In this document: positions 57,970-64,000 of the stretch, piece by piece
How the letters are laid out: each line of letters starts with the position of its first letter
Numbering within the stretch: the first letter of the stretch is position 1
Assembly: GCF_025717515.1 (NCBI RefSeq)
Contig: NZ_JAJIRN010000002.1
Coordinates: forward strand, 558,001-622,000
Length of the DNA: 64,000 bases
DNA from: Roseateles oligotrophus
GTDB taxonomy: Bacteria > Pseudomonadota > Gammaproteobacteria > Burkholderiales > Burkholderiaceae_C
Direction: 5' to 3'
Position numbers and translations under genes: made by a program
Notes under the pieces: model-generated
The model's database searches: none
Seen by the model: the letters and a program-made list of their open reading frames with translations, nothing else
Told to the model about the DNA's origin: nothing

Positions 57970-58260
57970 ATGAGCCAAGAGCAAACGCTGGACAGGTCGG
58001 TAAACAACGCCGCCGAGCTGCAGGATGAATTCCATGACGACGAGCTGGACTCGATCGGCGACCACCACCGGATGGCGGCCCACCACTTTTCGCTCGCGGC
58101 CGAACACCATATTGCCGCCGCAGCGGCCGATGACGACGGTGACGACGAAGCCAATGCACGCCACGCCTACCTGGCTTATCGCCATCAACTCAATGCGGTG
58201 CAGTACGCCGAAATCGCCGCGCTCGACAATGATTGCCTGGATGACACGCTGATCGGCTAA
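57970..58260 (+). CDS. Small acidic, histidine-rich helical protein
   Basis: A 96-residue protein with no signal or membrane segment. The middle is a periodic helix, MAAHHFSLAAEHHIAAAAA, then DDDGDDEANARHAYLAYRHQLNAVQYAEIA, in which paired histidines and alanines recur every seven or so residues. The pattern resembles a known but unnamed family of short proteobacterial AAxHH-repeat proteins, here with an acidic insert (DDDGDDE). Metal binding is possible from the histidine/aspartate content, but not shown. It stands alone. Confidence 0.72.
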   Translation: MSQEQTLDRSVNNAAELQDEFHDDELDSIGDHHRMAAHHFSLAAEHHIAAAAADDDGDDEANARHAYLAYRHQLNAVQYAEIAALDNDCLDDTLIG

Positions 58261-58420: not shown

Positions 58421-59671
58421 CTATTTAGCTGAATGATTGAGGCTGGCCTGCATCTTGGCCGCAGCCTCCGCCGGGCTCAGCTTGCCGGCCAGCACCTGGC
58501 TGTGCACGGCCCAAAAATCGGCCTCCAATGTCGGCCGGCCACGGTTAAGAATCTGGGCATTTAGGCGAATCGTCGATGCACAGGACTTGCGCCAATCCAT
58601 CATCTGTTTGGCGACCGGGTCGAGCACCGGCACCAGGTGATTGGACAAACTGAAAAAGCCCGTCACCTTGTTGGTGTACAGATCGGCGAACTCCTGCGAC
58701 GCCATCCAAGTCAACAGTTTGTAGGCATCCTCCTTGTTTTTGGACCTCGGATTGATGCCGATACCGATGTCCGAGTGATCGGAGATGTGGCAGACACCCC
58801 CCGCCTTGGGCACCGGCGGTGGGAAGGCGCCAAAGTCCAGGCTCTGCGCACGGATCGGGCCAATGTCCCAAGAGCCGGCCGGGTACACCGCTGCACGACC
58901 GAGGCCGAACAGACTTTGAGAGTCGGCATTGGTCTGCGTCGACGCGCTCTTGCTCAGATAGGTTCGCAACCTGGCCATCAATGTCCAGACGGTCTCGAAT
59001 TCGGCGTCGGTCAGTTTCTTTTTTCCAGAGATCAAGGCCTTGCGACCGGCCTCGCCCTGCCAATAGGCGGGGCCCATGCCATTGAAGATCACCTGGTGGG
59101 TCTCCCATTGATCGGCCAAACCCAGGGCCAGGGGCGTGTACTTGCCTTGACTTTTGACGACCTCCAGCAGCCTGAAGAATTCAGCCTCGGTGCTGGGCGG
59201 TTGCAGGTTGAGCTCGGCAAATATCTTCTTGCTGTAGAAGAAGCCATGGATCACCGAGGCGATCGGCATGCAATAGGTTTCGCGGCCATCATCGGTCTGC
59301 CAGGCCAGCTTGGCCGAGGCCGGAAAGTCATCGAGTTGGGCGCGGCCTTGTCCATCCAAACGCTCCAGCAAACCTTTTTTGTACAGATTCAAGGAGGCAT
59401 CAAAAGGGCGGCAAGTGATCAGGTCACCGGCCGTGCCCGCGCTCAGACGTTGCTGCAGACCGGCGTCGTATTCGGTCGGGGCCGTCGGCGCGAACTTGAC
59501 CGCCAGGCCAGGATGCTTGCGCTGAAAGGCCGGAATCAGCACCTCCTCCCACAGCACCTTGTCGTCAACCCGCCAGCTCTCGATCGTCAGGCCTGCGGCC
59601 AGCGAGCTCGCCGGAGAAACCAGCGCGCCCACATAAAGCAGACCAGCGAGCAATCGATGTTGGATGAGCAT
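58421..59671 (-). CDS. Extracellular solute-binding protein, family 1 (carbohydrate type), orphan
   Basis: A 416-residue protein starting at ATG 59671. The signal peptide is LLAGLLYVGALVSPASSLAA. The mature part starts LTIESWRVDDKVLWEE and continues with KHPGLAVKFAPTAPTEYDAGLQQRL and GLGRAAVYPAGSWDIGPIR, the standard order of sugar-binding ABC components. CHISDHSDIGIGINPRSKNKEDAYKLLTW is the late hinge region. No permease or ATPase gene is adjacent. A perfect palindrome is 46 bases upstream. The ligand is unknown; sugar or oligosaccharide is likely from the family. Confidence 0.88.
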   Translation of the reverse strand: MLIQHRLLAGLLYVGALVSPASSLAAGLTIESWRVDDKVLWEEVLIPAFQRKHPGLAVKFAPTAPTEYDAGLQQRLSAGTAGDLITCRPFDASLNLYKKGLLERLDGQGRAQLDDFPASAKLAWQTDDGRETYCMPIASVIHGFFYSKKIFAELNLQPPSTEAEFFRLLEVVKSQGKYTPLALGLADQWETHQVIFNGMGPAYWQGEAGRKALISGKKKLTDAEFETVWTLMARLRTYLSKSASTQTNADSQSLFGLGRAAVYPAGSWDIGPIRAQSLDFGAFPPPVPKAGGVCHISDHSDIGIGINPRSKNKEDAYKLLTWMASQEFADLYTNKVTGFFSLSNHLVPVLDPVAKQMMDWRKSCASTIRLNAQILNRGRPTLEADFWAVHSQVLAGKLSPAEAAAKMQASLNHSAK

Positions 59672-60131
59672 GAGTAGCCTGGCGACGCGCGCTGCGCGGC
59701 AGTTGAATTGCCTGCACGATAAATTTATCGGCCCTGTAACGCAATCTGCGCCAGCGCTGCATGTCAAAAACGAAGAAAACACGGTCGTTGTCAGCCTCCC
59801 ACTAACACCTCATTCAGTCAGATACCACGAGATACCTTGCGAGCCGGGCTGGCCGCGCATTGCTGCATCGGCGCCAGCTCATGGCCAACCGCGAGCGTGG
59901 AACTGTGGCGCGCAGGCGTCGTGTTACGTTATTTAACATCGCGCGCTAAGGCCGCCCTCATGGGGGAGGCCCGCCAAACAAGCCTCCGTCCCAGCAAAAC
60001 CCCCAATCGCCAAGTCTCACGGCCGCCCCCGACAATTGTCACAACAGCGCATCAGCCCTCCTCCCTTGACTTACACAACATCACCGAAGTCCAACGTTTC
60101 TTTGGCCAAGCCCTCACGGTCGCAGGGCAAG
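59672..60131. promoter_or_regulatory. Divergent 460-base regulatory region between two solute-binding protein genes
   Basis: No credible gene. It holds three clean dyads: CGATAAA-TTTATCG (59717-59730, perfect 14-base palindrome), TGTTA-N7-TAACA (59922-59938) and GACAATTGTC (60031-60040, perfect). The first is near the left gene, the third about 90 bases before the right gene. This is more symmetry than seen in other gaps of the window and suggests control by one or more dimeric regulators, possibly the OmpR-type regulator downstream plus a repressor. Confidence 0.55.
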
Positions 60132-61445
60132 ATGGCTCGCATGTTCAATTTCCTCGCCTTGGCTCCGATTGGCCTGATGGCCGCGGCACCTGGAGGCGCG
60201 GCGCCGCAGCCCTCTGCGCCCATGCCCACCGCCATCTCCGACAGTGCTACCGAGCTCAACGTCTTGCACTGGTGGACCTCCACCAGCGAACGAGCAGCGG
60301 CCGACCATGTGGCGGCCCGCATGGCCGAGCTAGGGCTGCGCTGGGTGGATGGCGCGGTGGCGGGCGGTGGCGGCGGGCCGGCGATCAAGGTGCTGAACGA
60401 GCGCACGCTGCGAGGCATGGCGCCCAAGGTCGCGCAACTGAACGGTCAAGCCACCATCGAATGGGCCGAGATGGGCCTGCTGCTGGAGCTGGACGGCGTC
60501 GCCAAGCGTCGGCAATGGGCGCGCACCATGTTCCCGCAGGTGATCGCGCAATTGAATGTGCGCGAGCATGTGGTGGCCGCCCCGCTGGGCATCCACCGCA
60601 TCAACAATCTGTATCTGAACAAGGCCGTGTTTCGCCGCCTCAAGATCGAACTGCCGACGACTTGGGCGGGCTTGCAAAGCGCTGCGCTGGTGCTGCGGGC
60701 CGCTGGCGTTACGCCGGTCGCCTTCAGCGATGAGCCCTGGCAGGTGGCGACCGTGTTCGAGACCCTGTTGCTCGCTGAGGCCGGGCCGGCGCTGTACCGC
60801 AGGATGGTCGAGCAACGCGACCCGCAAGCCTTCAATGACGCCTCGGTGGAGCGTGCTTTTCAGCGCCTGCGGGATTGGCGCAATCTGGCGGCAGGCCCCG
60901 TCGAGCGGCCCTGGACGGCGCTGGTGGCCGACTTTGCCGCCGGCCGCTCCGCCATGCTGATCATGGGCGACTGGGCGCGCGGCGAGCTGGGCACGCTGGG
61001 GCTGGAGGGCGGGCGCGACTTTGCCTGCCAGGCGGTACCCGGCACCACCGGCGTGCATCAGTTCAGTATCGACACCCTGGCCATGCTGGCCGGCAATTAC
61101 GCCGCCCAGGCCGAACAGGAAAAAATGGCCGAGCTGCTGGGCAGCGCGACCTTGCAGCTCGGCTACAACCGCATCAAGGGCTCGGTGCCGGTGCGTCGCG
61201 ACGTACCGGTGGACGAGCTGGATTTATGCGCCCAACAGTCCTATCAACTATTCGCCAACCCGGCAACGGCGCGCGTGCCCAGCCTGGTGCACCGCATGGC
61301 CTTTGATGAGGTCGGCAAAAACGCTTTCATCGAAACCGTTCACCGCTTTGCGCTGGACCCCAAACAAACTCCCGCCGCTGCGCAGCGCAAATTGCAGGGT
61401 CTGCTGCGCGCGCTTGGCCCTAAATCCTTGAAGCCGACACCATGA
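60132..61445 (+). CDS. Extracellular solute-binding protein, family 1, coupled to a two-component system
   Basis: A 437-residue protein from ATG 60132 with AGGG upstream. A signal region (FNFLALAPIGLMAAAPGGAA) is followed by LNVLHWWTSTSERAAADHVA, the usual start of sugar-binding components, then APLGIHRINNLYLNKAVF, FAAGRSAMLIMGDWARGEL and GVHQFSIDTLAMLAG. It is clearly related to, but distinct from, the divergent binding protein. Its stop overlaps the response regulator start (ATGA at 61442). No transporter genes are in the window, so a role as ligand receptor for the kinase is plausible. Confidence 0.88.
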   Translation: MARMFNFLALAPIGLMAAAPGGAAPQPSAPMPTAISDSATELNVLHWWTSTSERAAADHVAARMAELGLRWVDGAVAGGGGGPAIKVLNERTLRGMAPKVAQLNGQATIEWAEMGLLLELDGVAKRRQWARTMFPQVIAQLNVREHVVAAPLGIHRINNLYLNKAVFRRLKIELPTTWAGLQSAALVLRAAGVTPVAFSDEPWQVATVFETLLLAEAGPALYRRMVEQRDPQAFNDASVERAFQRLRDWRNLAAGPVERPWTALVADFAAGRSAMLIMGDWARGELGTLGLEGGRDFACQAVPGTTGVHQFSIDTLAMLAGNYAAQAEQEKMAELLGSATLQLGYNRIKGSVPVRRDVPVDELDLCAQQSYQLFANPATARVPSLVHRMAFDEVGKNAFIETVHRFALDPKQTPAAAQRKLQGLLRALGPKSLKPTP

Positions 61446-62158
61446 CCCGAACCATCTTGATCGTCGATGATGACCAGAAAATCCGCACCCTGCTGAAGAC
61501 CTATCTGGAGAAGAACCAATACGAAGTCCGCCTGGCCCATGACGGCGCCAGCTTCCTGGCCGAGTTCGAGCGCTTCAAGGACGAGATCAGTCTGTGTATT
61601 CTGGACGTCATGCTGCCCGACACCGAGGGCTTCGCGCTGTGCCAGGCGGTGCGCAAGAGATCCGATGTGCCGGTCATCATGCTGACCGCCAGCGCGGACG
61701 AAACCGACCGCATCGTAGGTCTTGAGTTGGGCGCCGATGACTATATCGGCAAGCCCTTCAACCCGCGCGAGTTGCTGGCCCGCATCAAGGCCATCCACCG
61801 CCGCTCCGGCCAGGACCGGGGCCAGACCGCGCGCTACTTCCGCTTCAACGGTTTTTGTCTGGATATTCTCGAGCGCAGCCTGATCGACCCGACCGGGGAG
61901 ACCTCGGCCTTGTCGGGCATGGACTTCCAACTGCTCAAACTTCTTGTCGAGCACCCCGGCGAGGTGCTGGACCGCAGCCGCCTGGCCGAAGTCACGCGCG
62001 GGCGCGACCTCGGCCCGCTCGACCGTTCGCTCGATGTGCAGGTCAGCCGCCTGCGCCAGCGCCTGCATGATGACGGCAAACAGCCGGCGCTGATCAAGAC
62101 CGTGCGCGGCTCGGGTTATGTTTTTTCCACCACGGTCACGGCGGGCAATGCGCCGTGA
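61442..62158 (+). CDS. OmpR-family response regulator
   Basis: A 238-residue regulator. The receiver has the acidic pocket D9-D11 in ILIVDDDQKIR, phospho-acceptor D55 in CILDVMLPD, MLTAS and GADDYIGKPFNPREL with the conserved lysine. The winged helix has SALSGMDFQLLKLLVEHPGEVLDRSRL and DVQVSRLRQRL, ending in KTVRGSGYVF. Start and stop overlap both neighbours (ATGA, GTGA), so binding protein, regulator and kinase are made together. Likely targets are the palindromes of the divergent region upstream. Confidence 0.95.
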   Translation: MTRTILIVDDDQKIRTLLKTYLEKNQYEVRLAHDGASFLAEFERFKDEISLCILDVMLPDTEGFALCQAVRKRSDVPVIMLTASADETDRIVGLELGADDYIGKPFNPRELLARIKAIHRRSGQDRGQTARYFRFNGFCLDILERSLIDPTGETSALSGMDFQLLKLLVEHPGEVLDRSRLAEVTRGRDLGPLDRSLDVQVSRLRQRLHDDGKQPALIKTVRGSGYVFSTTVTAGNAP

Positions 62159-63717
62159 GTTTGGGCCGTGGCATGACTTCGGGCACGATAGGCGGGCGCG
62201 GCTGGGCACAGCGCTTTATCGCCTTCTTGTTCGACAGCCTGCAGGGCCGCTTCGTGTTGGCCATGCTGGGCGGCTTGGTGCTGGTGCAGTTGCTGATCAA
62301 TCTGCTCTGGTACAAGCAACTGGAGCAACGCACCACCCGTCAGACCGAACTGGCCGCACATTTTGTGGCCAGCGGCGCGCTCGGTGCGCTGCGGGCGCTG
62401 CGCGAGTTACCCGCGACCTACCGGCCGCTGCTGATCGAGCAACTGCGCACCATGGGCGGCACGCGGTTTCTGGTTTTCTTCAACAACGCCGAAGTGGCGG
62501 TGCAGCCCTTGCCCGATCAGGCGCTGGCTCGTTTGCTGGAGAGCCGGGTGCGGCAGGAGTTGCTCGGCCAGCTGCCGCCGGGCGCAAAACTGCGCGTCAC
62601 CCTGGCCTCGCCGGTCGGGCTCAAGGTGGCGCCAAGCGGAGCCTTGCTGGCCGATCTGCCAGACAGCTGGGTCGACCCCTCGCTGCTGGACCTTGACCGC
62701 CCCGCCCCTTTCCTGGTGATTCAGGCGGAGACCGAGCCCGGCCAGTGGATGTACCTGAGCAGCGCCATGCCCGACCCCTACTTCTTGGAGCAGTTGGAGT
62801 TCTTCACCTGGCAGCGCATGGCGCCGCAGTTGCTGACCCTGGGGCTGGCCTTGCTGATGACCTTGATCACGGCGCGTGCCTTGACCAGCCCATTGCGAGG
62901 CCTCAGCCGGGCCGCAGCCAAGGTCGGTCGGCGCGCCAACCCCAAGCCCTTGACGGTGACCGGCACGGCCGAGGTCCGGCGGGCCATCGAAGCCTTCAAC
63001 GAGATGCAAGAGCGCATCCGCCGCTATTTGAGTGACCGCGAGCGCCTGTTTGCCTCGATCTCACACGATCTGCGCACTCCCATCACCAGGCTGCGCTTGC
63101 GTAGCGAGTTACTTGACGACCTCGCCGTGCAGGATGAATTCCACGAAGACCTGGACGAGCTTGACATGATGGTCAAGACCGCGCTGCAGATCGTCAAGGA
63201 CACCGATATCCACGAAAACCGGGTGCCGGTACGGATCGACCTGGTCTTGCAGAAAATGGTCCGCGACGCTCGCATGGCGGGTCAGCAGATCGACCTGGTC
63301 GAACAGCCCCTGACCGTCTTCGGCAAGCCCTTGGCGCTCAAACGCGCGCTCGGCAATCTGATCGATAACGCGATGTTCTATGGCGCCAATGCCGATCAAC
63401 ACAGGGCAGAACTGCTGATGAGCGAGGGCAAGATCGGCAGCCCCGAGGAAGGGCTGGTTTTGCTGACCGTGCGCGACTTTGGGCCCGGCGTGCCGGACAG
63501 CGCTTTGGCCAAGCTCGGCCAACCCTATACCCGCCTTGCCCATGGCGCCAAGATGCGCGAGGAAGGCTTGGGCCTCGGTCTGTCCATCGTGCGCGACATC
63601 GTCGCCGACCATGGCGGCGCGCTGCGCTTCAGCAATCATCCACAAGGCGGCTTCGAGGTGCGGGTAGCGCTGCCTCGCTATCCAAGTCAAGCCGCCAGCC
63701 CATTGACGACTCAGTAA
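62155..63717 (+). CDS. EnvZ-type sensor histidine kinase
   Basis: A 520-residue kinase; GTG 62155 overlaps the regulator stop, and an ATG at 62173 is an alternative. Membrane helices are at about 33-53 (FVLAMLGGLVLVQLLINLLWY) and about 222-243. The loop between them, about 170 residues, is periplasmic. HAMP follows, then the dimer helix with the phospho-acceptor histidine in FASISHDLRTPITRLRLRSELL. ATPase boxes are NLIDNAMFYG, DFGPGVPD and EGLGLGLSIVRDIVADHGG. A large periplasmic loop suits docking of a binding protein. Confidence 0.95.
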   Translation: MSLGRGMTSGTIGGRGWAQRFIAFLFDSLQGRFVLAMLGGLVLVQLLINLLWYKQLEQRTTRQTELAAHFVASGALGALRALRELPATYRPLLIEQLRTMGGTRFLVFFNNAEVAVQPLPDQALARLLESRVRQELLGQLPPGAKLRVTLASPVGLKVAPSGALLADLPDSWVDPSLLDLDRPAPFLVIQAETEPGQWMYLSSAMPDPYFLEQLEFFTWQRMAPQLLTLGLALLMTLITARALTSPLRGLSRAAAKVGRRANPKPLTVTGTAEVRRAIEAFNEMQERIRRYLSDRERLFASISHDLRTPITRLRLRSELLDDLAVQDEFHEDLDELDMMVKTALQIVKDTDIHENRVPVRIDLVLQKMVRDARMAGQQIDLVEQPLTVFGKPLALKRALGNLIDNAMFYGANADQHRAELLMSEGKIGSPEEGLVLLTVRDFGPGVPDSALAKLGQPYTRLAHGAKMREEGLGLGLSIVRDIVADHGGALRFSNHPQGGFEVRVALPRYPSQAASPLTTQ

Positions 63718-64000
63718 TGCAACAAGCTCCCCAAACAATCGTGATCGTCGGCGGCGGTACCGCCGGCTGGATGGCGGCCAACCTTTTGGCCCAGCAATGG
63801 GGCCGGCATGGCACGCAAATCACGCTGATCGAATCCAGCGAGATCGGCATCATCGGAGTCGGCGAAGGCTCCACGCCATATCTGCGGCAGTTTTTCAAGC
63901 GCCTCGGCATCGAGGAGCGCGAATGGATGCCGGCCTGCAACGCCACCTTCAAATGCGGCATCCGCTTCCCGGACTGGTCCACACAGCCTGGCTACGAGCA
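63717..64000 (+). CDS. Flavin-dependent halogenase (tryptophan-halogenase family), 5' part
   Basis: The first 94 codons of a gene continuing past the window end. It starts at ATG 63717, sharing one base with the kinase stop (TAATG). TIVIVGGGTAGWMAANLLA is the FAD loop with the GxGxxG-x2-W-style start of halogenases, and IGIIGVGEGSTPYLRQFF is the second family block. Such enzymes use FADH2, O2 and halide to halogenate indoles or other aromatics. Members of this group often sit in TonB-receptor and sugar-utilisation loci without known natural substrate. The catalytic WxWxIP motif lies beyond the edge. Confidence 0.9.
   Translation, partial: MQQAPQTIVIVGGGTAGWMAANLLAQQWGRHGTQITLIESSEIGIIGVGEGSTPYLRQFFKRLGIEEREWMPACNATFKCGIRFPDWSTQPGYE

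Follow-up and report, generated by a model that had tools for sequence, protein, structure and literature searches.

A conserved operon of a sugar-binding protein, a response regulator and a histidine kinase as a candidate amino-sugar sensor in Burkholderiales

Genes and features of the locus

The stretch of DNA analysed here (the window) comprises 64,000 nucleotides of a Roseateles oligotrophus contig (NZ_JAJIRN010000002.1, positions 558,001 to 622,000). Near its right end, three genes encode a family 1 solute-binding protein (SBP), a response regulator (RR) and a histidine kinase (HK), hereafter the trio (Table 1). A sequence-only reading of the window had described these genes as coupled by stop/start overlaps, and both overlaps (ATGA at 61442-61445 for SBP/RR and GTGA at 62155-62158 for RR/HK), read directly from the sequence, agree with that description, as do the open reading frames (ORFs) and the Pfam domains; the word 'fused' in its title was wrong, that is, SBP, RR and HK are separate, overlapping genes. 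A third coupling escaped that reading: the kinase stop TAA (63715-63717) shares 1 base with the ATG (63717) of a halogenase-like gene, forming TAATG. The latter belongs to the tryptophan-halogenase family and carries ATFK and WVWQIP (WxWxIP) motifs. Also overlooked was a second family 1 binding protein gene, SBP2, which is divergent from the sensor SBP gene. Further upstream, several genomes of the genus share a conserved small ORF of 96 aa (57970-58260, plus strand; cluster c12 with 7 members).

Table 1. Features of the trio locus, in coordinates of the window
Feature	Position	Strand	Remarks
SBP2, second family 1 binding protein	58421..59782	-	PF01547 1e-29; likely start 59671
Predicted regulator box	59923..59941	+	PWM score 11.9, best match of the whole window; TTAC, then degenerate half TTAAC
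Second, weaker predicted regulator box	60070..60088	+	Degenerate; 10.1, only other match of at least 9 in the window
Sensor SBP (family 1, GltB/GtsA glucose-binding-protein type)	60132..61445	+	
OmpR-type response regulator (RR)	61442..62158	+	PF00072, PF00486
EnvZ-type histidine kinase (HK)	62155..63717	+	Predicted RisS/Cache-like periplasmic domain, ~residues 53-218
Tryptophan-halogenase-family gene, start	63717..64000, on to about 65234 (L003 1717-3234)	+	Coupled to kinase stop; ATFK, WVWQIP motifs

To the right of the halogenase lies an MFS gene with NagP as its best family match (508 bits, under the NF046060 cut-off of 625), followed by a TonB receptor gene (TIGR01782, 622 bits, over the cut-off of 310) and by genes that resemble, by eye, those of tyrosine/homogentisate breakdown. 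The halogenase-family gene coupled to the sensor kinase also lies close to the TonB receptor, and a second halogenase-family gene and TonB receptor are located near the nag genes of the same genome (L171 17530-19901), where nagA (264 bits, over cut-off) adjoins nagB-II (59% identity).

Conservation of the gene order

The sequence-only reading had suggested searching for the three-gene order across Burkholderiales. Relatives were collected by a one-genome-per-species scan with an alignment of ten SBPs as query, and the best 80 of 170 were kept; 22 loci holding other members of the SBP family, taken from relatives, served as controls. The order SBP-RR-HK on the same strand was found in 77 of the best 80 of 170 loci, the other three (L099, L115 and L119) being interrupted by contig ends, and because order and strand are kept to this extent the arrangement is beyond chance. 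By a mechanical nearest-start estimate, which is biased to short distances, the reading frames of SBP and RR overlap in 40 of the best 80, the overlap being exactly 4 bases in 20 of them, and those of RR and HK overlap in 55. A match to the sensor SBP was present in 23 of 39 relatives searched, and a copy of at least 75% identity in 14 of 18 same-genus genomes, the organism's own included; the nearest named relatives of the locus are Paucibacter and Roseateles.

Importers near the trio have a binding protein of their own

Among the ORFs as far as the end of the contig, 15.6 kb to the right of the window, we found neither an ABC permease nor an ATPase, and none of these ORFs fell in the permease or ATPase clusters. 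The earlier remark that none is visible thus holds beyond position 64000, and no importer matching the sensor SBP turned up where that reading had proposed to look for one. The other pattern it had considered, with homologues beside a permease and the kinase elsewhere, did not appear either, as the SBP adjoins the kinase in 77 of the best 80 of 170 loci, so that its interpretation as a kinase assisted by a binding protein and lacking a transporter of its own is supported. A complete importer (permeases and ATPase, called when the permease was at least 50% identical to that of locus L046) lies near the trio in 41 of the best 80 and brings its own SBP2, and in five loci (L132, L133, L143, L144 and L146) the divergent importer is of the glucose type, again with its own SBP. 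By gene order, the trio SBP was the SBP of a nearby importer in none of the best 80. Given that the importer nearby has its own SBP2, the trio SBP looks like a dedicated sensor rather than an importer component.

None of the 19 Roseateles-group loci (L073-L091) has such an importer permease; 17 of them contain NagP and the TonB receptor, and 13 contain the halogenase. The halogenase occurs in 0 of the 61 other loci among the best 80 and in 3 of the 22 control loci, and by this distribution it is a lineage feature of the Roseateles group. From the distribution of importer, NagP and lone SBP2 across loci, the arrangement in the window can be placed at the end of a series: trio with importer, trio with lone SBP2 and NagP, and trio with NagP alone.

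SBP2 is kept where the importer is missing

SBP2 of the window is an orthologue of the importer SBP of relatives and clusters with SBP2 of the L046 and L048 importers, here without permeases. No close permease was found elsewhere in the same genome, in which the best of 10 matches to the L046 permease PERM1 reached 32%. Likewise, 11 of 11 fetched lone-SBP2 genomes had no orthologous permease elsewhere (best matches 28-32% identity); the same search recovered the permease in both control genomes, at 96% and 82%. That SBP2 is a dying relic is not supported by its dN/dS of 0.080-0.088 (window versus L073-L075), compared with 0.061-0.089 for the sensor SBP, and on these ratios SBP2 is kept under purifying selection after importer loss in the window's genome and the 11 fetched loci. 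A tree of 53 SBP2 proteins, in which the lone proteins have long branches (0.31-0.5), requires three switches between presence and absence of the importer, and hence reads as repeated loss of the importer from beside SBP2; fewer losses and a regain would also fit the tree.

In every lone-SBP2 case, in the 11 fetched loci as in the window's genome, the locus encodes a NagP-like MFS permease, and seven of these loci have the arrangement SBP2-TonB receptor-NagP. It is conceivable, if highly doubtful, that SBP2 has taken on a new importer-free role, either handing sugar to the MFS permease or serving as a further partner in the periplasm, in competition with the sensor SBP or modulating it. We know of no described case of a binding-protein-dependent MFS importer.

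A predicted regulator box moves with the target operon

SBP2 is divergent from the trio SBP in 42 of the best 80 of 170 loci. Dereplication of these SBP2/SBP spacers gave 37 sequences, 26 of which contain a TTAC-N6-TTAC tandem (expected 0.4, mean of 10 shuffles), and all 49 instances of the tandem are oriented on the SBP strand. A matrix (PWM) based on 55 instances of the tandem, drawn from the 42 spacers, was applied to all other sequence. In 11 of 11 loci outside the matrix set with a non-divergent SBP2/NagP operon (L101, L104, L105, L113, L121, L123, L124, L125, L128, L145 and L147, amounting to about four groups of near relatives), a box scoring at least 17 was found ~151-287 bp before the operon. 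It precedes SBP2, but NagP in L105, and is carried on the opposite strand from its target, which is the same relative orientation as in the spacers. The box thus moves with the SBP2/NagP target operon in these 11 loci. Among the best 80 of 170, the non-Roseateles loci had a box of at least 17 in 48 of 61 and none in 13, with 3 matches elsewhere, and the 22 control loci gave 1 match in 421,649 bases.

Both window matches of at least 9 fall in the SBP2/SBP spacer, the better one at a place where stronger boxes occur in L076 and L077, and a match of at least 11 precedes the SBP in 14 of the 19 Roseateles-group loci. No box of at least 9 was found near the promoters of NagP, the TonB receptor, the halogenase or the nag locus. 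In the direction of SBP2, the box reads TGTAA-N5-TGTAA and resembles OmpR/CpxR boxes.

The kinase and its periplasmic domain

The kinase carries HAMP, HisKA and HATPase domains and the regulator a receiver and a Trans_reg_C domain, as in OmpR/EnvZ-type pairs, although the kinase does not reach the 415 bits set as cut-off for the EnvZ equivalog. The hybrid kinase ChiS has a receiver, whereas no receiver domain was found by Pfam in the trio kinase. Its periplasmic loop measures ~166 residues (the first transmembrane stretch extends to ~residue 52 and the second helix starts at 219), close to the ~170 estimated from sequence earlier. Sequence search of the first 300 residues against solved structures gave weak matches only, to HAMP parts and the like. 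With Foldseek, the one match under E 0.001 was an integrative WalK model and RisS came third. The domain is predicted to have a sensor fold of the RisS/Cache kind; to our knowledge, RisS has no SBP partner. Compared with 12 kinases from relatives' loci that hold other members of the SBP family, the domain gave no match under E 0.07.

Docking of the SBP on this loop is plausible. The near-invariant patches at residues 85-105 and 206-211 could be a docking site or a ligand site alike, and the distance correlation between SBP and kinase (0.93, versus 0.90 for SBP and regulator) may be explained by co-inheritance alone. A mirror-tree test was rejected as interaction evidence, since with all parts co-inherited it is uninformative. 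The kinase might instead sense a ligand of its own through the Cache-like domain, the SBP being a mere co-transcribed target or a ligand buffer, and both the predicted fold and the direct 2-ketogluconate sensing proposed for GtrS (PMC4081096) would be in keeping with this. We consider it unlikely, given that the SBP heads the operon in 77 of the best 80 loci while the importer SBP is separate; the near-invariant patches fit either site equally.

Binding pocket, gene neighbourhood and ligand

The sensor SBP has the sequence type of GltB/GtsA and the family fold. Of the twelve glucose-contact residues listed in PMC7927077, 74-75 of 75 sensors retain 9; of the other three, K92 is present in 0, N301 in 2 and G68 in 22 of the 75, and the full set of twelve is not found in the sensor SBPs. 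Because N301 is also altered in 2 of 5 transport-type SBPs, only K92 cleanly separates sensors from transport SBPs.

Searched GlcNAc/chitin genes lie within ~10 kb of the trio in 45 of the best 80 of 170 loci, versus 0 of the 22 control loci. If the SBP2 importer is counted as well, the neighbourhood is of this type in 67 of the best 80; the remaining 13, some of them short, have neither, and the five loci whose divergent neighbour is a glucose-type importer are among these 13. In 17 of the best 80, nagK-, nagA- and nagB-II-like genes follow the SBP2 importer. In these assignments NagA is over its cut-off, NagK-, NagB-II-, NagX- and (as a fragment) NagE-like genes are under theirs, and GH18 and GH20 are over the Pfam cut-offs. 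In the window organism's own genome, a search limited to GH18 and GH20 found neither, for which reason chitin was dropped as its own substrate and chitin breakdown is not claimed for it. At L048 (3081-5351, minus strand), one protein adjoining the trio joins a GH18 domain and a LytTR DNA-binding domain. In L052, L055 and L059, a different kinase-regulator pair adjoins a GltB-type SBP; divergent from them lie a TonB receptor, genes that look beta-glucosidase-like by eye, and an importer that has a separate SBP. The split between sensor and transport SBPs may have arisen more than once.

We conclude that the sensor SBP probably reports amino sugars such as N-acetylglucosamine. The same architecture with glucose or another non-amino sugar as ligand, as for GltB, would agree with the nine kept contacts, with the glucose-bound chains that are the nearest solved structures, with the glucose-type importers beside the trio in five loci and with the lack of GH18/GH20 in the organism's own genome, but the loss of K92 in all 75 sensors and the GlcNAc/chitin gene neighbourhood make this distinctly unlikely. 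Finally, an SBP serving as an ordinary importer component through permeases encoded elsewhere is very improbable, for although the genome encodes several other permeases of the family (the 10 matches above), the nearby importers have SBP2 or a glucose-type SBP and, by gene order, in none of the best 80 loci the trio SBP.

Proposed mechanism and significance

With a probability of roughly 0.6, then, we favour an amino-sugar-sensing operon with an importer-free SBP, and we infer its ligand, binding, docking, activation and direction of regulation as follows. In the periplasm, the secreted sensor SBP would bind a sugar of the GlcNAc type, either GlcNAc itself or a short chito-oligosaccharide, and, once loaded, would dock on the RisS/Cache-like domain and activate the kinase, which would phosphorylate the OmpR-type regulator. 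The regulator would then bind the tandem TGTAA-N5-TGTAA boxes in the SBP2/SBP spacer and raise transcription of uptake genes, namely SBP2-permease-permease-ATPase, often followed by nagK-nagA-nagB-II, in relatives, and SBP2, perhaps with NagP and the TonB receptor, in the window organism. Transcription of the sensor operon itself would rise as well.

If true, this would provide a defined, testable amino-sugar sensor with a predicted regulator box for environmental Burkholderiales, including such chitinolytic or fungus-feeding genera as Chitinibacter, Chitiniphilus, Deefgea and Collimonas, in the last of which two chitinase-and-transport loci are known (PMC4690342). It would also be a clear example from nature of how a binding protein can leave transport for signalling while the importer next to it retains a separate SBP.

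Comparison with known systems

The sequence-only reading knew of no described case of a family 1 sugar-binding protein translated together with an EnvZ-type kinase and followed by a halogenase; that such an SBP working with a kinase is undescribed is not supported, as GltB with GtrS-GltR (PMC7927077) and NagB1 (PMC8233162) precede it. In Pseudomonas, GltB activates GtrS-GltR and the sugar pocket of GltB is required (PMC7927077, section 3.6). The trio resembles the Pseudomonas aeruginosa system in combining an SBP of the glucose-binding-protein type with an RR-kinase pair; SBP role, sugar pocket and kinase contact were shown experimentally there. GltB heads its own importer operon (gltBFGK-oprB) and serves both jobs (PMC7927077), whereas the trio SBP has K92 changed and is not encoded with ABC permeases of its own, the nearby importers carrying another SBP.

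NagB1 of Paenibacillus sp. FPU-7 is a (GlcNAc)2-binding SBP encoded beside a kinase and a regulator, not permeases (PMC8233162), as is the trio SBP in 77 of the best 80 of 170 loci, and its paralogue NagB2 lies next to permeases, much as the trio SBP has SBP2. NagB1 comes from a Gram-positive host, however, with only distant sequence likeness to the sensor SBP (7ehp, E 2.1e-11), and its signalling role is a proposal. In Vibrio cholerae, chitin genes are under the control of a two-component system in which a chitobiose-binding SBP participates (PMC8233162), which is similar in that an amino-sugar SBP is proposed to act with a two-component system, but the Vibrio SBP also serves an importer. No prior description of the Burkholderiales SBP-RR-HK trio was found in the open-licence literature. 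The principle of SBP-assisted two-component sensing is thus already established by GltB-GtrS-GltR (PMC7927077) and NagB1 (PMC8233162); the novelty lies in a GltB-type SBP that is devoted to sensing, has no importer and is paired with a RisS-like kinase, in how widely this arrangement is conserved, in the regulator box and in the lone SBP2.
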